A stretch of 12,009 nucleotides of DNA, taken from the NCBI GenBank assembly GCA_946886425.1, contig CAMPIP010000060.1:1-12009 (forward strand), read 5' to 3'. Positions 2,935 through 12,009 of this stretch are shown here, piece after piece. A program made the position numbers and the translations under genes. The number at the start of each line of letters is the position of its first letter. Within the stretch, counting starts at the first letter, position 1. The notes beneath the pieces were generated by a model, which worked only from the letters and a program-made list of their open reading frames with translations, was not told where the DNA came from and did not search any database. The DNA comes from an uncultured Actinomycetes bacterium. Its GTDB lineage: Bacteria > Actinomycetota > Thermoleophilia > Solirubrobacterales > 70-9.

Positions 2935-3830
2935 GACCGAGGACGCCGCATGGTGGCCTCTGGGTCCACGTCGCGGTGCTTCATCCGCACAATTACGTCC
3001 TCGCGGGTAGCCAGGTCGCGGCGGATGCGGTCGGCGACGGTGACCGAGCGGTGGCGGCCGCCGGTGCAGCCGACCGCGATCGTCAGGTGGCTCTTGCCCT
3101 CGGCGACATAGGCGGGGACTAGGAACTCCAGCAGCGGCAGCAGGCGGCCGTAGAACTCGCCGGCCTGGGTGCCGGACTCGACGTAGGCGCGGACCTGCTC
3201 GTCGAGGCCCGTCATCGGCCGCAGCTCGTCGACGTAGTGCGGGTTGGGCAGGAAGCGGACGTCGAGCGTGAGGTCGGCGTCGCGGGGCGGCCCGTTTTTG
3301 AACCCGAAGGTGAGCAGGGTCAGGGCCAGCTCCCCCCCGTCCTCGCCGCCCAGCATCTCCTCGGCGATCCGCCGCCGCAGCTCGGCCCCGGTCAGGTCGC
3401 TGGTGTCCATCACCAGGTCGGCGCGCTCGCGCAGCGGCGCCAGCAGCTCGCGCTCGGCGCGGATCCCCTCGACGATCCGGCCTTCCGGCGCCAGCGGGTG
3501 GCGGCGGCGGGTCTCCTTGTAGCGGTCGAGCAGGGTCTCCTCGTCGGCCTCGAGGAACAGTACCTGGGGCTTGAGGCCGTTTTGCTCGAGCTCGTCCAGC
3601 ACCTGCAGGAGGTCCTCGAAGTAGTCGCCGCCGCGCACGTCGGAGACCACCGCGGCCCGCTCGACGCCGCTGCCCTCGTGCCGGAACAGCTCGCCGAGGC
3701 TCTCAATCATCCGCGGCGGCAGGTTGTCGACGCAGAAGTAGCCGCCGTCCTCGAAGGCGGCGATCGCCTCCGACTTCCCGGCCCCGGAGTGGCCGGTGAT
3801 CAGCACCAGCGTCATTGCCTTGTCCGCCAT
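2925..3830 (-). CDS. rapZ: RapZ/YvcJ-family nucleotide-binding protein
   Basis: A 301-residue cytoplasmic P-loop protein. In E. coli RapZ is an RNA-binding adaptor that targets the small RNA GlmZ for decay; in Bacillus the homologue YvcJ hydrolyses nucleotides. The role in actinobacteria is less clear. Walker A is GHSGAGKS (13-20), followed by the family motif YFCVDNLPP (31-39). The C-terminal domain has FGFKNGPP (175-182), RFLPNPHYVDELRP (192-205) and the hallmark GCTGGRHRSV (254-263). Length is usual for the family. The start at 3830 lies 5 bases after the uvrC stop; an in-frame ATG at 3815 is a possible alternative, because the start at 3830 has only a very close AGGGG in front. Close spacing suggests co-transcription with uvrC, a conserved pairing in Gram-positive bacteria. 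Confidence 0.96.
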   Translation of the reverse strand: MADKAMTLVLITGHSGAGKSEAIAAFEDGGYFCVDNLPPRMIESLGELFRHEGSGVERAAVVSDVRGGDYFEDLLQVLDELEQNGLKPQVLFLEADEETLLDRYKETRRRHPLAPEGRIVEGIRAERELLAPLRERADLVMDTSDLTGAELRRRIAEEMLGGEDGGELALTLLTFGFKNGPPRDADLTLDVRFLPNPHYVDELRPMTGLDEQVRAYVESGTQAGEFYGRLLPLLEFLVPAYVAEGKSHLTIAVGCTGGRHRSVTVADRIRRDLATREDVIVRMKHRDVDPEATMRRPRSAK

Positions 3831-3835
3831 CGCCC

Positions 3836-5731
3836 CTACCCGATCCTGTTCAGCTGCTCGTGTATCTCCCGCCCTACTTTGCCAGGCAGGCCGGGCACCG
3901 CCTCGAGTTCCTCCCGGGTCGCGGCGAGAAAACGCTCCGGCGAGCCGAAGTGGCGCAGCAGCGCCCGCTTGCGCGCCGGCCCGATCCCCTTCAGCTCGTC
4001 CAGCACCGAGCCGGTCATCGCCCGGTCGCGGCGGCCGCGGTGGTGTTCGATCGCGAATCGGTGGGCCTCGTCACGGACCCTCTGCAACAGCTTGTTGGCC
4101 TCGGAGTCTCGGGGCAGGTCGAGCGGCGCCGAACGGCCGGGGACGTAGACCTCCTCCTCGCGCTTGGCGAGGCTGATCACGGTGACGCCGCGCTCGACGA
4201 ACGGCTGCAGCGCCTTCATCCCCGCGGTCAGCTGGCCCTTGCCGCCGTCGATCATCACCAGCGAGGGCAGCGCCGAGAAGCTGGCGTCGCGCTTGCCGTC
4301 GTGAGGGGAGAGGTCGGCCTGTTCGAGATAGCGGGCGATCCGGCGCCGCAGCACCTCCTCCATCGAGGCGAAGTCGTCGGGGCCGGCGTTATCGTCGGCG
4401 CGCATCTCGCCGCGCACTTTGAAGCGCCGGTAGTCGGACTTCTTGGTGGCGCCGCCCTCGAAGACGACCATCGAGGCGACGGTGTGCTCGCCGCCGATCG
4501 TGGAGATGTCGAAGCCCTCGATCCGGACCGGCAGCTCGTCCATCCCCAGCGCCGCCGCCAGCGAGGCCAGCGACTCGACCCGGCGGGCGCGGCGGTGCTC
4601 GCGGCGCAGCCGGTCCTGGTCGAGGGCGAGCCGGGCGTTGCGCTCGGCCAGCTCGCGAAGCCGTCGTTTGTCGCCCCGCTCGGCCGCCCGCACCTCGACC
4701 GGGGCGCCGCGCCGCTCGCCCAGCGCCTCGGCGATCACCTCGACCCGCTCGCGCAGGTAGGGGCCGACGATCACCATCGCCGGCAGCGCCGGCGAGGCCG
4801 AGTAGTACTGGGCGATGAACTCCTCGGCGACCTCGGCGGGCTCGCGCTCGCCCTGGTTTTCGAGGTAGAAGCTCTGCCGCTCGGCGAGGATCCCGTCGCG
4901 GACCTGGAAGACCTGGGCGTTGGCGTCTTCGCCTTCGACCGCGACCCCGATCAGGTCGGCGGTGCCGACCGAGCCGCCGGCGACCCGCTGGCGCTCGAAC
5001 AGCGAGCGGATCGCTTTCAGCCGGTCGCGGTGCAGGGCGGCGCGCTCGAACTCCTGGGCCGCCGCGGCGGCGTCCATCTTCGCCTCCTCCTCGGCCTCGA
5101 CGTGGCGGTAGCGGCCGGAAAGGAAGTCGACGATCGCGGCGACGTTGCGCCGGTACTCCTCCTGGCTGACGTAGCCGACACAGGGCGCCCCGCAGCGCTT
5201 GATGTAGTAGTCGAGGCAGGGGCTGCCGGAGCGACGGCCCGGCTCGACCCCCTCGCAGGTGCGGAACTGGAACAGCTTGCCGAGCAGGTCGAGCGTCTCC
5301 CGCACCCGCTTGGCGCTGGAGAAAGGTCCGAAGTAGGCGCGGTGGGGCCGGTGTTTCTCCCGGGTGAAGTAGACGCGCGGATAGTCCTCGTCGAGGCTGA
5401 CCGCGACGTAGGGGTAGGACTTGTCGTCGCGGAGGCGGATGTTGAAGCGCGGCCGATGCCGCTTGATGAAGCTCTGCTCGGCGAGCAGCGCCTCCGCCTC
5501 GGTGGCGGTGACGAGCGTCTCGATGCGGTCGACCCGCGAGGTCAGCCGGGTCTCGCCGCCGGAGAAGTGGGAGGCGACGCGTTTGCGGATCGAGCGGGCC
5601 TTGCCGACGTAGAGCAGCTCGTCGGCCTTGTCGTGGAAGAGGTAGACGCCGGGCGAGTCGGGCAGGGCGCGGCGCTGTTGAGCGATTCGCTCAACCCGCG
5701 AGAGGTCGCCGTTGCCGTCGCTGTCCGCCAC
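3836..5731 (-). CDS. uvrC: UvrABC excinuclease subunit C
   Basis: The 631-residue nuclease of nucleotide excision repair, which cuts on both sides of a lesion presented by UvrA and UvrB. The N-terminal GIY-YIG domain (about 22-100) has PGVYLF and LLYVGKA. Four cysteines, 159, 172, 180 and 184, are spaced like the iron-sulfur ligands known in E. coli UvrC. A UvrB-binding UVR segment lies near 213-248. The RNase H-like 5' nuclease domain shows FDIS (Asp408), MIDGGKGQ (Asp495) and His557. Tandem helix-hairpin-helix motifs end the protein (578-627, KGIGPARKRALL and VPGLPGKVG). It is complete and appears active. The start is GTG at 5731; a TGA two codons upstream rules out an earlier one. It is divergent from the crotonase gene, 57 bases away, and heads the run into rapZ. 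Confidence 0.98.
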   Translation of the reverse strand: MADSDGNGDLSRVERIAQQRRALPDSPGVYLFHDKADELLYVGKARSIRKRVASHFSGGETRLTSRVDRIETLVTATEAEALLAEQSFIKRHRPRFNIRLRDDKSYPYVAVSLDEDYPRVYFTREKHRPHRAYFGPFSSAKRVRETLDLLGKLFQFRTCEGVEPGRRSGSPCLDYYIKRCGAPCVGYVSQEEYRRNVAAIVDFLSGRYRHVEAEEEAKMDAAAAAQEFERAALHRDRLKAIRSLFERQRVAGGSVGTADLIGVAVEGEDANAQVFQVRDGILAERQSFYLENQGEREPAEVAEEFIAQYYSASPALPAMVIVGPYLRERVEVIAEALGERRGAPVEVRAAERGDKRRLRELAERNARLALDQDRLRREHRRARRVESLASLAAALGMDELPVRIEGFDISTIGGEHTVASMVVFEGGATKKSDYRRFKVRGEMRADDNAGPDDFASMEEVLRRRIARYLEQADLSPHDGKRDASFSALPSLVMIDGGKGQLTAGMKALQPFVERGVTVISLAKREEEVYVPGRSAPLDLPRDSEANKLLQRVRDEAHRFAIEHHRGRRDRAMTGSVLDELKGIGPARKRALLRHFGSPERFLAATREELEAVPGLPGKVGREIHEQLNRIG

Positions 5732-5760
5732 GGGTCAAAGGGTAGGCTGCTGGCCACTCG

Positions 5761-5780
5761 GCCAAACGGACGCCAAACGG
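5761..5780. promoter_or_regulatory. Direct repeat in the uvrC / crotonase divergent promoter region
   Basis: The nine bases GCCAAACGG occur twice, at 5761-5769 and 5772-5780, so the repeat period is 11 bp, about one helical turn. The second copy ends in the GG of the GGAG ribosome binding site of the plus-strand gene. The 57-bp gap must hold promoters for both genes, so a regulator site here is plausible. I see no convincing -35/-10 pair. Confidence 0.35.
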
Positions 5781-5788
5781 AGAGCGAG

Positions 5789-6613
5789 ATGACCAGCCAG
5801 ACCCAGAGCCCGCCCGAGCTGAAGACCCTGCAGATCGAGATCGAGGGCGAGGTCGGGATCCTCACCCTCAACCGGCCCGACGCCTTCAACGCGATGAGCC
5901 CGGAGATGATCATGGAGTTCCCGACCGCCTTCTCCTGGCTGGCCGACCGGGCGCCGCTGCGAGCCCTGATCGTGACCGGCGCCGGCAAGGCGTTCTGCGC
6001 CGGCGGCGACGTCACCTGGTTCCGCAAGGGCGTCGAGTCGGAGGAGGTCGACCTGCCCGCCGAGGTGCGCCAGGGAGCCGAGGCCCTGCACGTCGGCATC
6101 GTCGACCTGCGGCGGATCCCCTACCCGGTGATCGCCGCCGTCAACGGCCCCGCCGCCGGCGCCGGCTTCTCGCTGGCGCTCGCCTGCGACTTCCGGATCG
6201 CCTCCGAGTCGGCCTTCCTGGCCTGCGCCTACGGCCGCATCGGCGCCTCCCCCGACGGCGGCATGACCTACTTCCTACCGCGCGTCGTCGGCCCCAGCAG
6301 GGCGCTGGAACTGCTGCTCGAGGACCCCAACCTGACCGCCGCGCAGGCGCTCGAGGAGGGTCTCGTCTCCGCGGTGGTGGCGCCCGACGAGCTGATGACC
6401 GCCGCCCGGGCCAAGGCCGAGGTGCTGGCCGCCAAAGCGCCCCACTACGTGCGGATGGCGAAGCGGCTCTGCGCGGTCAGCATCGAGAACAGCCTCACCG
6501 AGCACCTGCAGCTGGAGCGGCACGGGATCGCCGACAGCATGGGCACCGAGGACCTCAGGAACGGCGTCGAGGCGTTCTTCGGCGGTGGCACCCCGGTCTT
6601 CGAGGGACGCTGA
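5789..6613 (+). CDS. Crotonase-fold acyl-CoA enzyme, probably a PaaG-like enoyl-CoA isomerase
   Basis: A 274-residue member of the enoyl-CoA hydratase/isomerase superfamily, acting on acyl-CoA thioesters in the cytoplasm. The oxyanion-hole elements GKAFCAGGDV (66-75) and NGPAAGAGFSLALACD (119-134) are present. The two glutamates of true hydratases are not: Ser128 and about Ala147 occupy their places. Instead there is IGASPDGGMTYFLPRVVG (151-168), whose Asp156 corresponds to the catalytic acid of PaaG-type isomerases. An isomerase is therefore likelier than a hydratase; the substrate is unknown. The start at 5789 has GGAG six bases upstream (5779-5782). The open frame continues far upstream through the uvrC antisense strand, but that is a shadow. 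It may belong to a fatty or aromatic acid pathway with the MaoC hydratase nearby. Confidence 0.92.
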   Translation: MTSQTQSPPELKTLQIEIEGEVGILTLNRPDAFNAMSPEMIMEFPTAFSWLADRAPLRALIVTGAGKAFCAGGDVTWFRKGVESEEVDLPAEVRQGAEALHVGIVDLRRIPYPVIAAVNGPAAGAGFSLALACDFRIASESAFLACAYGRIGASPDGGMTYFLPRVVGPSRALELLLEDPNLTAAQALEEGLVSAVVAPDELMTAARAKAEVLAAKAPHYVRMAKRLCAVSIENSLTEHLQLERHGIADSMGTEDLRNGVEAFFGGGTPVFEGR

Positions 6614-8555: not shown

Positions 8556-8951
8556 TTAGCCGGCCAGCTTCAGGGACGTATGGCGGGCGATCGTCTCGAA
8601 GTCGGCATCGGCAGCGAGCAGCTCGGCACCGGAGCGAATCGCGACCGCGGCGATCAGGCAGTCGCCGAGCTTGCGCGGGGTCTCGCCGCCCCGACGGCAG
8701 CGGCGGTAGAGCTCCGCCGCCTGCTCGTAGTCGCCGGGGCCCTCCACGGCAAGGAACTCGAGCCCGTAGACGAGGCGACGCAAGCGATCCCGGTCGGCGT
8801 CGTCGCGAGCGCCGGCAAGTAGCTCCATCGCGATGACGTCGGTCGCGGCGAGCTCGGTCCCGCTCTCCAGCGCCGAGCGCAGTCGCAGGTGGGCCTCGTC
8901 GCCGGTCGCCCGCAGGAACTCGATCCAGGCGGAAGTGTCGACGAGGATCAT
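8556..8951 (-). CDS. vapC: VapC-type PIN-domain ribonuclease toxin
   Basis: A 131-residue PIN-domain protein, predicted to be a Mg2+-dependent ribonuclease that stops translation by cutting specific RNAs, usually tRNA or rRNA, when its antitoxin is lost. The acidic active site is complete: Asp5 (MILVDTSAWIEFL), Glu43 (AMELLAGA), Asp97 (KLGDCLIAAVAI) and Asp115/Asp117 (LLAADADFE). Length is typical. Its ATG overlaps the vapB stop codon by four bases (ATGA), the usual antitoxin-first arrangement that keeps the two products balanced. The toxin looks intact. The cleaved RNA cannot be told from sequence. Confidence 0.94.
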   Translation of the reverse strand: MILVDTSAWIEFLRATGDEAHLRLRSALESGTELAATDVIAMELLAGARDDADRDRLRRLVYGLEFLAVEGPGDYEQAAELYRRCRRGGETPRKLGDCLIAAVAIRSGAELLAADADFETIARHTSLKLAG

Positions 8952-9160
8952 CGCTCGGGGATCTCGTCGCGCGCACGAATCTCGGTCAGGTCGCCGGCCC
9001 AGCCGCTGCCCTCGGTCGCGAGGGCTTCCTGACGATTCATCGGATCGCCGACAAGTCGGCGCAGCGCCAGGTCAACCGCCTCTTTCTTGCTGCGAAGGCG
9101 GTAAAGACGCATCGCCCTGGCGACCAGCTCGTCGTCGATCTCGATGTTCGTGCGCGTCAT
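8948..9160 (-). CDS. vapB: VapB-type ribbon-helix-helix antitoxin
   Basis: A 70-residue antitoxin. The N-terminal ribbon-helix-helix DNA-binding domain is clear: MTRTNIEIDDELVARAMRLY, then RLRSKKEAVDLALRRLV up to residue 37, matching the VapB family (PF09957). The C-terminal tail with GSGWAGDLTEIR (51-62) is the usual toxin-wrapping part. The start at 9160 is preferred to the longer frame up to 9358 because the family begins here and because the operator lies directly in front; the upstream part would run into the fusion gene. It should bind the palindrome at 9170-9187 together with VapC and repress its own operon. There is no strong Shine-Dalgarno. Confidence 0.93.
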   Translation of the reverse strand: MTRTNIEIDDELVARAMRLYRLRSKKEAVDLALRRLVGDPMNRQEALATEGSGWAGDLTEIRARDEIPER

Positions 9161-9166
9161 TGCACC

Positions 9167-9187
9167 AGGATACACCTTGAGGTGTAT
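9167..9187 (-). promoter_or_regulatory. vapBC operator and overlapping -10 element
   Basis: A perfect 8-bp inverted repeat with a two-base centre, ATACACCT-TG-AGGTGTAT, lies at 9170-9187. In the minus sense TATCCT (9167-9172) fits the -10 pattern TANNNT and overlaps one arm, so bound VapB would block RNA polymerase. The -10 lies six bases before the vapB ATG, which places the transcript start at or near the A of ATG and suggests a leaderless message. No good -35 is seen. Confidence 0.65.
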
Positions 9188-9240
9188 TGAGCTGGGGCAG
9201 CGGTGTCGGCCGTCCCCCGGGGCTGACAGCAGGCCCGCGG

Positions 9241-10575
9241 TCACGCGACCAACCTCACTTCGAAGCTGGGGAGCGCAAGGTCCCCGGCGCCACCGAGAAG
9301 CGCGAGGATGCGGCTGACGTAGGCGCGTGTCTCGGGGTAGGGCGGTACGCAGCGGCAACCTTCGACGGCGCCGGGGCCGGCGTTGTAGCCGGCCAGCGCG
9401 AGTTCGGGCGAGCCGAGCTGGCGGAGCAGGTCGGACATGAGGTGGGCCTGGGCCTCGATCGCGGCGATGGGGTCGAACGGGTCGTCGAGTCCGTAGGACG
9501 CCGCCGTCGAGGGCATGAACTGGGCGATGCCCTGGGCGCCGGCGGGGGAGACGGCGAACGGGTTGAAGTTGGACTCCGCCATCAGCTGCGCGGCGAGCAG
9601 TGACGCCGAGAGGTTCCAGCGCGCCGCTGCTTGGAGAAGCGGGTCGCGGAAGCGGGCGGGAACGAAGCTCGGCAGCGCCGCGCCGCTCGGAGCCGAGCGG
9701 TCTCCCCCGCTCCCGAGCATGGCGTTACCCGCCTCCGAGCAGGGCGCCGGGCCGGCAGAGAAGCCGTAGTGCCAGGCCTCCCACGAGTACCTCTGGACGA
9801 AGCCGAAGCGACTTGCGTTAGCGGCGAGCCAGCCGTAGGCGGCGTCCGGCCCGAGGTCGAGCTCGGTCGCGCAGCGGTGCAACGATCGCCCCGGCGGCGC
9901 CACCCAGGTCGGGTCGGGATGGGCGGCGAACAGCTTCGCCTGCTCGGCGTCGGAGCGGAAGCCGGAGACGACGAGGAGCGCGATCCCGCCGCCACGGGCA
10001 GCGGCTGCCATGCGATCGAACGCCGCGGCCACATCCGGTCGCATCCCCTCGCCGTTTCGGTAGACGAGAGGCCCGGCGTAGCCGCCGCCACTCGCCATCG
10101 ACGGCTCCGAGGCCGATCCGGACGGGGCCGCCGCTTCGGCGACCGCCGATCCCTCCACGCGGCCGACGCCCTCGAGCTCCAACCGCGCGAGCACGATCGC
10201 CTTCACCCGCAGCGGCGCGAACGACGCCAGGTCGGGGAACGAGACCCGGACCCGCTCGGGTGCGACGCCGTTCGACCTGGTGACGTCGAGGGCCGCCGCC
10301 CGGGCACGGGCGAGGTAGGCGACCTTGTCGAGGTGAATTGGGTTCGGCAGCCCGTTGGGCAGCGTCGGCGGCGAGAGCAGCCGTGGCAGGTCGTCGCGCA
10401 TCGACCGCGCCGCCGAGATCGCGACGAGGTCGGCCGCTCGCTGGACGCGGCCTTTGCCGGTGATCGCGCCGGCGATCGCGACCAACGCCAGGGCACCGGC
10501 AATGAGCACGAAGCAAGCGCCCACGGCGAGGACCAGCGCCTGCCCAGCCTCCCCTCTGTCGGTCCCGCGCCGCAT
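9241..10575 (-). CDS. Membrane-tethered fusion: TadE/TadG-like segment + VanY D,D-carboxypeptidase + SLT lytic transglycosylase
   Basis: A 444-residue three-part protein. Residues 1-150 resemble an actinobacterial TadE/TadG-like pseudopilin: AGQALVLAVGA (10-20), one membrane helix (13-38), then VQRAADLVAISAARS. A Gly/Ser/Ala/Glu linker follows (145-168). Residues 169-272 form a VanY-type zinc peptidase: VSGFRS (203-208), zinc ligands His233 and Asp240 (SLHRCATELDLGP), and EAWH (Glu266, His269); it would trim D-Ala from stem peptides. Residues 300-430 form an SLT lytic transglycosylase: catalytic Glu334 (AESNFNP), GAQGIAQFMPST (346-357) and LAGYNAGPGAV (394-404), cutting the glycan strand. All catalytic residues are present. 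The helix would place both enzymes outside the membrane. No Shine-Dalgarno precedes ATG 10575. It follows two pseudopilin genes and an unknown gene on the same strand, suggesting a wall-opening role for a Tad pilus (inference). Confidence 0.93.
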   Translation of the reverse strand: MRRGTDRGEAGQALVLAVGACFVLIAGALALVAIAGAITGKGRVQRAADLVAISAARSMRDDLPRLLSPPTLPNGLPNPIHLDKVAYLARARAAALDVTRSNGVAPERVRVSFPDLASFAPLRVKAIVLARLELEGVGRVEGSAVAEAAAPSGSASEPSMASGGGYAGPLVYRNGEGMRPDVAAAFDRMAAAARGGGIALLVVSGFRSDAEQAKLFAAHPDPTWVAPPGRSLHRCATELDLGPDAAYGWLAANASRFGFVQRYSWEAWHYGFSAGPAPCSEAGNAMLGSGGDRSAPSGAALPSFVPARFRDPLLQAAARWNLSASLLAAQLMAESNFNPFAVSPAGAQGIAQFMPSTAASYGLDDPFDPIAAIEAQAHLMSDLLRQLGSPELALAGYNAGPGAVEGCRCVPPYPETRAYVSRILALLGGAGDLALPSFEVRLVA

Positions 10576-10741: not shown

Positions 10742-11371
10742 TCAAGGCGACGGCGCGCGGCCCTCGGGGTCGAGCAAGAAAAGCTTTCGTTCGACCGCTG
10801 CGGGCAAGCCGCCCGCCGACCCGGGCGGGAGGGCGCCGAAGAGCGCGCGGCGCTCCGCAACCCAGTGGAGGCGGCGCTTGAGGACGGCGACGGCGAGGCC
10901 GCGGCTGAGGAGACCGGCGACAGCGAGGGCCAGCAGTGGGCGATCCGTGGCCAGGTCGGCGCGGAGGAGGACGCCGGAGATCTCCTCGCCGAGCGGCGAG
11001 CCGAGCAGCGCCTGCGCCATCGCCGGCTCGACGTGGACGACGCGCAGCCCGTCGCGAGCGACGGTCGCGGCGGCGAGGGCCGTCGCCTGACCGTCCGGGT
11101 CGTTGCCGACCGCGAGCTGACAGACGTGGCCGCGAGCCGCCACGTGGGCCGGGGGCAGATGCGCGACGAGGCGCTCCTCGAGGCGCTGCGCCGTCGCTGA
11201 GGCCAGCAGAGTAGGGCGCGGCGCGCGGCCGCCGACGTCGATGAGCAGGGTCGCGCGGTCGACGTCGGCGCCGGCGCAGGCAAGCGCCGCGGCGGCCGCC
11301 CTCGCACCCTCGGCGGAGCCCACAGCGGTGACCAGCACCGCGGGCCCGGCGGTTGGCACCGCGACCCTCAC
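10742..11371 (-). CDS. Unknown 209-residue protein in the Tad-like locus
   Basis: I do not recognise a family with confidence. The 209-residue protein is rich in Ala, Leu and Arg and has no signal peptide, and only a weakly hydrophobic stretch (146-164), so it is probably cytoplasmic. Its layout vaguely recalls a ParA/MinD-type fold: VLVTAVGSAEGARAAAAALA (12-31) stands where a P-loop strand and helix would be, and TLLIDVGG (41-48) resembles a Walker B/switch strand. However, the P-loop lysine is absent, so normal ATP hydrolysis is unlikely. Tad systems carry an atypical ParA/MinD-like protein, TadZ/CpaE, so a degenerate TadZ relative is one guess, held with low confidence. The start is GTG 11371, overlapping the preceding TadE-like stop by four bases (GTGA), so the two are translationally coupled. 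Confidence 0.8.
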   Translation of the reverse strand: MRVAVPTAGPAVLVTAVGSAEGARAAAAALACAGADVDRATLLIDVGGRAPRPTLLASATAQRLEERLVAHLPPAHVAARGHVCQLAVGNDPDGQATALAAATVARDGLRVVHVEPAMAQALLGSPLGEEISGVLLRADLATDRPLLALAVAGLLSRGLAVAVLKRRLHWVAERRALFGALPPGSAGGLPAAVERKLFLLDPEGRAPSP

Positions 11372-11700
11372 GGCGCCGGCCTCGCGCTGGCGCTGCTGGT
11401 CACGGCGAGGTGGTCGGCGACCGCCGCCAGCGGCGACGGCGGCCGCAGCCGCACGCTGACCCGGCCGCCCTCGATCTCGACGGCGAGGTCCCCGCGGGCC
11501 CAGCCAGGGAGGGCGGCACGCGCCGCCTCGCGTGCCGAGCCGCCCGAGGCGAGCGCCAGCGCCCCGGCCTCGGCGGCGCCGTCGGCAAGGGTCAGCGCGT
11601 ATCCGGCGAGGAGCAGCTGCAGGGCGACCGCGCCGGCCAGCAGCAGCATCGGCAGCGCCGCGACCATCTCCACGGTTGCCTGACCGTCGGAGTCAGCCAT
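11368..11700 (-). CDS. TadE-like pseudopilin 2
   Basis: A 110-residue TadE-like protein with one N-terminal membrane helix. MADSDGQATVEMVAALPMLL (1-20) holds the type IVb prepilin pattern G-x4-E: Gly6, then Glu11 at position +5 after the expected TadV-type cut, followed directly by the hydrophobic helix (12-38). ADGAAEAGALAL (39-50) and a short extracytoplasmic domain ending VSVRLRPPSPL... follow, as in minor pilins. It would be inserted in the membrane, processed by a prepilin peptidase and assembled in or at the base of a Tad pilus. The ATG at 11700 overlaps the stop of the preceding TadE-like gene by eight bases, and its own stop overlaps the next start by four, so three genes form a tight operon. 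Confidence 0.87.
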   Translation of the reverse strand: MADSDGQATVEMVAALPMLLLAGAVALQLLLAGYALTLADGAAEAGALALASGGSAREAARAALPGWARGDLAVEIEGGRVSVRLRPPSPLAAVADHLAVTSSASARPAP

Positions 11701-12009
11701 CGGCCGGCCCCAGCGCCGCGCTCGCCCCCACCCGGACCTCGGGCATCGCCGGGAACAGCCGCGGGACGACGACGCGCACGGTGACCTCGCCCGCCTCCTC
11801 GACCCTGGCGCCGGCGCGCAGCGGCGGCGGCAGCGCCTTCCGCGCCACCGCCGCCGCGTTCCCACCCACCAGCGCCGCCCGAGCCCCCGCACGGGCGGCC
11901 ACGCCCGCCGACCAGAGGGCCTGGCCCGCGAGCGCCACCTGCGCAACCGCCAGGACCGCCACCAGCAAGAAGGGGACGACGGCGACCAGCTCGACCGAGG
12001 CGGTCCCCT
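11693..12009 (-). CDS. TadE-like pseudopilin 1 (5' end outside window)
   Basis: The last 104 residues of a TadE-like protein; the frame is open through the right edge. The visible part begins GTASVELVAVVPFLLVAVLA, with the prepilin pattern G-x4-E (Gly-Thr-Ala-Ser-Val-Glu) directly before a membrane helix. A TTG at 11968 could be mistaken for a start, but it lies inside that helix. After the helix come Ala- and Gly-rich residues and a short domain ending VRVVVPRLFPAMPEVRVGAS, typical of the C-terminal strands of these minor pilins. Only the first few residues of the protein are likely missing. The gene overlaps the next pseudopilin gene by eight bases. Confidence 0.85.
   Translation of the reverse strand, partial: GTASVELVAVVPFLLVAVLAVAQVALAGQALWSAGVAARAGARAALVGGNAAAVARKALPPPLRAGARVEEAGEVTVRVVVPRLFPAMPEVRVGASAALGPADG

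Follow-up and report, generated by a model that had tools for sequence, protein, structure and literature searches.

The window (the whole 12,009-nucleotide stretch of DNA analysed here) carries on its minus strand, at 9241..10575, an intact frame for a 444-aa protein in which a TadG-like pilin part is fused to a VanY and an SLT enzyme domain, an assignment based on this frame, Pfam, NCBIfam and homologues. The pilin part (residues 1-150; 10126..10575, minus) resembles the TadE/TadG (Rv3654c) type and has no Glu5, as judged from TIGR03816, a profile match and an AF2 model; its polar leader runs to Gly11 and is followed by a helix at residues 12-67, another helix, and three strands. Next come a VanY (M15B) D,D-carboxypeptidase domain with H233, D240, E266 and H269 (residues 166-275; 9751..10080, minus) and an SLT lytic transglycosylase domain with E334 (residues 302-429; 9289..9672, minus). 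The initial annotation had described a three-part protein of this kind in one intact frame, which is borne out by the frame itself, the Pfam and NCBIfam matches, homologues, and the predicted structure; its coordinates were correct, and only the strand had to be corrected, as the gene runs from 10575 to 9241 and a plus-strand reading of 9241..10575 contains an internal stop.

In the HMM search that had been proposed for this gene, both enzyme domains of the window copy were clear (SLT PF01464, residues 314-404, E 1.8e-21; VanY PF02557, residues 177-272, E 2e-13; both Pfam). The pilin-type models fell below their curated cut-offs: Tad PF13400 matched residues 11-57 at 20.7 bits, slightly under the 22.3-bit Pfam cut-off, and the NCBIfam model TIGR03816 (Rv3654c family TadE-like) matched residues 9-61 with E 6.7e-6 and 26.3 bits, for a cut-off of 50.95. 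An Rfam search of the window gave no match at gathering scores. We then evaluated the same domains in an alignment of 41 family members with 42-77% identity to the window copy, where at E <= 0.01 VanY was found in 41/41, SLT in 39/41, TIGR03816 in 39/41 and PF13400 in 29/41, so that the pilin-like N-terminus claimed earlier was recovered across the family; the PF13400 cut-off itself was passed by the fusion gene in 10/16 genomes. The homologues listed include full-length proteins from other records that are 100% and 99% identical, and 120/120 of those listed have both enzyme domains (429-488 aa), which makes a joining error unlikely; together with full-length copies across the class, these near-identical proteins led us to rule out a sequencing or assembly error that fused two genes. 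Judged from the sequences, the three-part architecture is far beyond chance.

The catalytic residues had been named correctly from the start (His233, Asp240, Glu266, His269 and Glu334). The first four are invariant in 41/41 members and fit the VanY signature, in which we take them to be the zinc ligands His, Asp and His together with the catalytic Glu; E334 is invariant in the 39/39 SLT-bearing members and is presumably the catalytic Glu of a GH23-type SLT signature, accompanied by GIAQFMP and AYNAG-type motifs. Given this conservation across the alignment, both active sites appear complete. Median pairwise identity was 0.71 for VanY and 0.65 for SLT, compared to 0.43 and 0.39 for two pieces of the pilin part (38/41 members, leaving out L046, which is cut by a contig end, as well as L047 and L048), and by this measure constraint on the protein is strongest in its enzyme domains. 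SLT is absent from L047 and L048, while VanY is present in all 41; these two branch beside an SLT-bearing member and within the SLT-bearing set (support 87, midpoint root), a nesting that makes loss of SLT likelier than gain. An RTX calcium-binding repeat protein (PF00353; 8 and 7 stretches) was observed after the SLT-less members (L047:5562-6926 and L048:3301-4674).

All 41 fusions retain G11, a prepilin-type Gly before the hydrophobic helix, and Glu5 is present in 0/41, compared to Gly and Glu5 found together in 77/77 TadE-like copies encoded nearby. In a profile comparison, the fusion N-terminus nevertheless matched the neighbouring TadE set (prob 83, E 9e-6), whereas three controls gave prob 0.1-0.3. 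The structure prediction that the initial annotation had suggested for the three parts returned a pilin-like helix-plus-sheet (helix 12-67, helix 84-101, three strands to 149) followed by separate VanY and SLT domains, with linkers that are weakly ordered in the AF2 model; when the whole-protein model was compared with solved structures, the matches listed included SLT-type chains and one VanY, with no pilin among them. Tip complexes are described as capped by a subunit without Glu5 in part of one account (PMC10191384), and retention of the Gly with absence of Glu5 is, as far as a sequence signature can tell, what one would expect if a pilin caps the tip complex.

Upstream of the fusion gene lie the TadE-like genes that had been reported beside it, although in each case their own matches to PF07811 and NF041390 are under the cut-offs. 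TadE2 (11368..11700, minus) encodes a TadE-like minor pilin with the motif G/QATVEM; TadE1 (11693..12009, minus), whose 5' end lies past the window, encodes another of the same family and motif type (G/TASVEL), and the two overlap by 8 bases if the ATG at 11700 is the start of TadE2. Using a profile (domain E < 1e-9) over about 3.5 kb upstream of each fusion, we detected 77 TadE-like copies in 40/51 loci, and these are the alignment rows in which Gly and Glu5 were counted; just three frames were discarded (E 5e-4 to 8e-4), all of them the N-terminus of the fusion gene itself. Upstream sequence in the 11 loci with no TadE amounted to about 1.1 kb or less in eight, 1.8-1.9 kb in L015 and L048, and 9.9 kb in L037, where no TadE was found within about 3.5 kb upstream of the fusion. 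A membrane protein of about 117 aa was also observed upstream of TadE1 (L001:8096-8449 and relatives), for which a profile search across the loci gave 36 rows.

Between TadE2 and the fusion, a gene at 10742..11371 (minus), which overlaps TadE2 by 4 bases, encodes a protein of 209 aa whose predicted fold is of the ParA/MinD type, with no conserved P-loop. On the basis of this model it is perhaps TadZ-like; the TadZ structure 3fkq ranked 12th in Foldseek (E 0.034) and was not among the best 50 in a second comparison. An assignment to AbrB, to which Pfam gave a weak match of 17.0 bits for a cut-off of 29.2, was dropped once the ParA/MinD-type fold was predicted. Directly downstream of the fusion is a Pfam-matched pair of a VapB antitoxin and a PIN-domain toxin (8556-8951 and 8948-9358, minus), and since other genes occupy this position in L001, L013 and L017, the pair in the window may be a local insertion. 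The wider surroundings differ as well among Pfam-confirmed neighbours, with uvrC and rapZ adjoining the locus in the window and polyphosphate kinase and phosphate-transport genes adjoining that of L001. A 932-aa plus-strand frame at 3815-6613 is mostly antisense to uvrC (Pfam) and has an enoyl-CoA hydratase-like stretch at its 3' end, noted by eye; long antisense frames are common in the GC-rich DNA of this window.

The suggestion that the fusion might be widespread in related genomes proved right: the family occurs in at least 73 of 199 genomes drawn from the class Thermoleophilia (E <= 1e-45), a set picked by hand that includes two genomes with matches lacking SLT (G168, G145) and one in which the gene is split between contigs (G075), while genomes with possible fragments (G069, G081, G087 and, more weakly, G140) were counted as fusion-minus. 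Each of the 16 genomes first examined has one main match. A protein search yielded 7,954 relatives at E <= 0.001 among 7,996 candidates scored, and a scan of genome contigs recovered 52 loci, mostly titled Solirubrobacterales or other Thermoleophilia and some titled Actinomycetota only. One of these, from an Oscillospiraceae record (L052), was rejected as a family member as its match covers the VanY part alone. The fusion is also present in L051, whose record is titled, probably wrongly, as a Bifidobacterium breve MAG; in the tree L051 falls with L039, an actinobacterium from a lake bin. In a draw of 396 genomes across the phylum, with at most 4 candidates scored per genome, 74 genomes matched, 53 of them through the SLT part only and 21 beyond it; all 21 were also in the class draw, and no genome outside the class-draw set had a full fusion. 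A plasmid origin was rejected, given that 0/1,107 matching plasmid records cover 80% of the fusion protein. Carriers from culture collections include Solirubrobacter phytolaccae KCTC 29190 and S. taibaiensis KCTC 29222, whose loci contain the fusion, and the wall-crossing question discussed below can thus be tested in collection strains.

The initial annotation had also placed the fusion in Tad loci, which was not supported as it stood. No tadA, tadB or tadC lies beside the fusion in any of 51 loci with flanks of up to 10 kb; the two genes are on different contigs in 51/61 class genomes having both, and in the 10 with both on one contig the distance to the nearest TadA ranges from 40 kb to 943 kb. 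The fusion thus sits in a pilin mini-cluster whose motor is encoded at another place in the genome. An ATPase paired with a platform protein, both of Tad type, was found in 15/16 fusion genomes, judged by eye from scores and places, the remaining genome (G013) having T4a-type genes only and no Tad-type motor; a Peptidase_A24 prepilin peptidase was likewise found in 15/16 (not in G016), including 6/6 fusion genomes without T4a-type genes. Across the 199 genomes, 61 have both the fusion and TadA, 12 the fusion only, 49 TadA only and 77 neither, which gives a Fisher p of 6e-10 when genomes are treated as independent and relatedness is left uncontrolled; in those 12 of the 73 fusion genomes there was no TadA at E <= 1e-60. 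Since the cluster was never seen beside motor genes, the link between fusion and motor rests on co-inheritance, and because this co-inheritance follows taxonomy, shared ancestry alone may explain it.

To characterize the motors we constructed a TadA phylogeny of 90 chosen copies (80 and 10 from two sets, with 136 copies listed in all by a profile search of the genomes). A group of 33 Flp-type copies (support 91), made up of 27 copies that belong to fusion-minus genomes and 6 that are second copies in fusion genomes, is set apart from the other 57, which comprise 52 copies from fusion genomes and 5 from fusion-minus genomes; three of those five (G069, G081, G087) show possible fusion pieces. 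Thus 52/58 TadA copies of fusion genomes fall outside the Flp-type group, a count in which the second copy of G136 was left out and in which the 'first' copy was defined as the better match to a fusion-genome profile, so that the label leans towards this result. The motor loci have the order tadA-tadB-tadC, and mraZ, with which the division and wall cluster begins, is no more than about 4 kb from the motor in 30/52 loci of fusion genomes, compared to 0/32 loci of fusion-minus genomes and 2/6 second copies; in L093, MraZ, MraW and a penicillin-binding protein were confirmed by Pfam. A SAF-domain gene also occurs in the L093 motor locus and, by similarity, in only 2/52 motor loci. Two genomes contain both kinds of motor locus about 13 kb apart, Flp-type and fusion-type (G101:C7 571051-584773 and G191:C112 5667-19608). 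As far as this tree indicates, the fusion goes with its own TadA motor group, lineage and function being inseparable here.

The Flp major pilin model PF04964 and DUF4244 (PF14029) were above cut-off in 0/16 fusion genomes, and a Flp match at E <= 0.05 (a threshold used here because the curated cut-off was passed by only 14/199 genomes) lay no more than 10 kb from the best TadA in 29/49 fusion-minus genomes versus 2/61 fusion genomes; in both exceptions, G101 and G191, the neighbour is the second, Flp-type locus. In 14/16 Miltoncostaea-like motor loci, a proline-rich pilin-like protein of about 90 aa and the RG/STTAEYLG type is encoded directly after tadC in the same operon (L158:6917-7207, L159:1865-2155, L098:10670-10951 and eleven other loci), and the remaining 2/16 contigs stop about 0.5 kb after tadA. 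These small proteins have Glu or Asp at +5 in 13/14 cases, with Glu at +6 in L167, and the L098 copy has no Pfam match, which indicates that Flp models overlook such proteins. No Flp-like pilin was detected near the Solirubrobacterales motors, either by motif scanning or by a profile search; the motif scan was weak, flagging 14/33 Flp-type loci and 8/51 fusion loci, since its filter scored Pro in the helix against a match.

Thermoleophilia, within the Actinomycetota, are monoderm. Taken together, the pilin-like segment, two complete active sites, Glu5-bearing TadE partners and the association with a TadA group, all read from sequence, may be accounted for if this class has a split Tad-type pilus machine in which the fusion serves as the large, TadG-like minor pilin. 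TadE1 and TadE2 would be two small minor pilins that form a TadE/F/G-like tip complex with the fusion. The prepilin peptidase would cut the fusion after Gly11, and the trio would prime a filament or pseudopilus driven by TadA, TadB and TadC. VanY and SLT could then sit on flexible linkers at the advancing end, the former trimming stem peptides and the latter cutting glycan strands, so that the filament crosses the thick wall. We consider it an evenly balanced proposition that the fusion is the TadG-like, peptidoglycan-cutting subunit of a TadE/F/G-like tip cassette in a split Tad machine. Tentatively, and with some doubt, we further propose a self-drilling pilus whose Tad-type tip is a two-activity peptidoglycan cutter that makes its own passage across the thick wall as the filament grows and takes both enzymes outward; if true, this would explain wall crossing without a separate dedicated hydrolase.

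The initial annotation had instead imagined a wall enzyme tethered by a pseudopilin. Its pilin part and its enzymes stand, and the tether fits less well, as the missing Glu5 next to two Glu5-bearing TadE genes favours a tip subunit. The same signature bears on the alternative that retains most of that idea, in which the fusion is held at a fixed envelope anchor and its enzymes reach the wall from there. Lytic transglycosylases do serve other envelope machines (as part of PMC12307814 also notes), a table in PMC10191384 lists TadG as part of a membrane sub-complex and not as a minor pilin, and the weakly ordered linkers of the model would allow the enzymes wall contact; on the other hand, a protein that keeps Gly-1 and lacks Glu5, next to two TadE genes that have Glu5, shows the pattern of a tip cap, and TadG-like proteins are treated as tip pilins in more recent work (PMC12075869, PMC13170226). 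We regard a fixed anchor as unlikely.

Still less probable, in our judgement, is a general growth or division wall enzyme that has borrowed a pilin-type anchor and has no link to a filament. The absence of motor genes from flanks of up to 10 kb at 51 loci, the strong conservation of the enzyme domains, the Pfam-confirmed neighbours in L001 and in the window, and the frequent position of motor loci by mraZ-rsmH, which makes a tie to wall growth possible, are all compatible with such a role, but in 40/51 loci the fusion is found with two TadE genes whose prepilin signature is intact, and the fusion goes with one TadA group. The enzymes might also act outwards, as a contact weapon or feeding device in which they cut the walls of neighbouring bacteria, much as Myxococcus Kil tips, which are TadE/F/G-like and required for killing according to part of PMC12075869, act on prey; a prey-adapting weapon would be expected to vary in its enzyme domains, whereas these are the least variable part of the protein, and as 16 genomes each have a single main copy, this reading seems very improbable. 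Finally, we hardly credit a T4a-type PilB/PilC machine as the user of the TadE and fusion minor pilins in place of the Tad motor: a two-domain PilC-type T2SSF protein in 9/16 fusion genomes and a PilB-like ATPase in G001 (by eye) would fit it, but G003, G004, G006, G007, G009 and G015 have the fusion and a Tad-type motor with no PilC- or PilB-type match, and the pilins match TadE-type profiles.

The tip-subunit reading can be placed among several known systems. VirB1, EtgA and the flagellar SLT enzymes are SLT lytic transglycosylases dedicated to envelope machines and are separate proteins, unlike the SLT domain here, which is fused to a pilin part and a carboxypeptidase. The mycobacterial Rv3654c/Rv3655c pair, which adjoins flp motor genes, is echoed by the TIGR03816 matches in 39/41 fusions at E <= 0.01 and by weak NF041390 matches of the TadE genes; it differs in that the Rv3654c-type TIGR03816 model spans 109 positions and has no enzyme domain, with the window copy scoring below its cut-off. 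The TadG/KilN/CpaL large minor pilins of Tad pili (Myxococcus Kil tips and Caulobacter CpaJ-CpaK-CpaL) likewise combine a pilin part and a C-terminal module with two small TadE/TadF-like pilins. PMC12075869 presents trios of the TadE/F/G-like kind as pilus tips in which the TadG-like member bears a modular C-terminal domain at the extremity, and three of the four Myxococcus Kil tips as encoded in separate clusters. The modules differ, with a vWA domain in CpaL (excerpt of PMC13170226) and an unknown C-terminal fold in KilN4, compared to two peptidoglycan-enzyme domains in the fusion. Streptococcus sanguinis PilB and PilC similarly have a functional domain grafted on a pilin (PMC10191384 and PMC6916266, in part), unlike the fusion in that those domains are adhesive and its own are wall enzymes.

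How type IV pili cross the thick monoderm wall is a stated open question (a passage of PMC6916266), and a 2025 paper states that reports of a peptidoglycan hydrolase or lytic transglycosylase are lacking for the Tad pilus (PMC12307814), in agreement with the earlier remark that no Tad wall enzyme had been described. At the level of titles and abstract openings in the open-licence literature, we found no description of a pilin/VanY/SLT fusion. The family also points to a Tad system whose parts lie at two loci far from each other, and surveys based on loci could miss such systems. Modular minor pilins are already known; as read from its sequence, what is new here is a modular minor pilin with two wall-enzyme domains, and a widespread family that fuses two such domains to a pilin part offers a testable answer to the stated gap.
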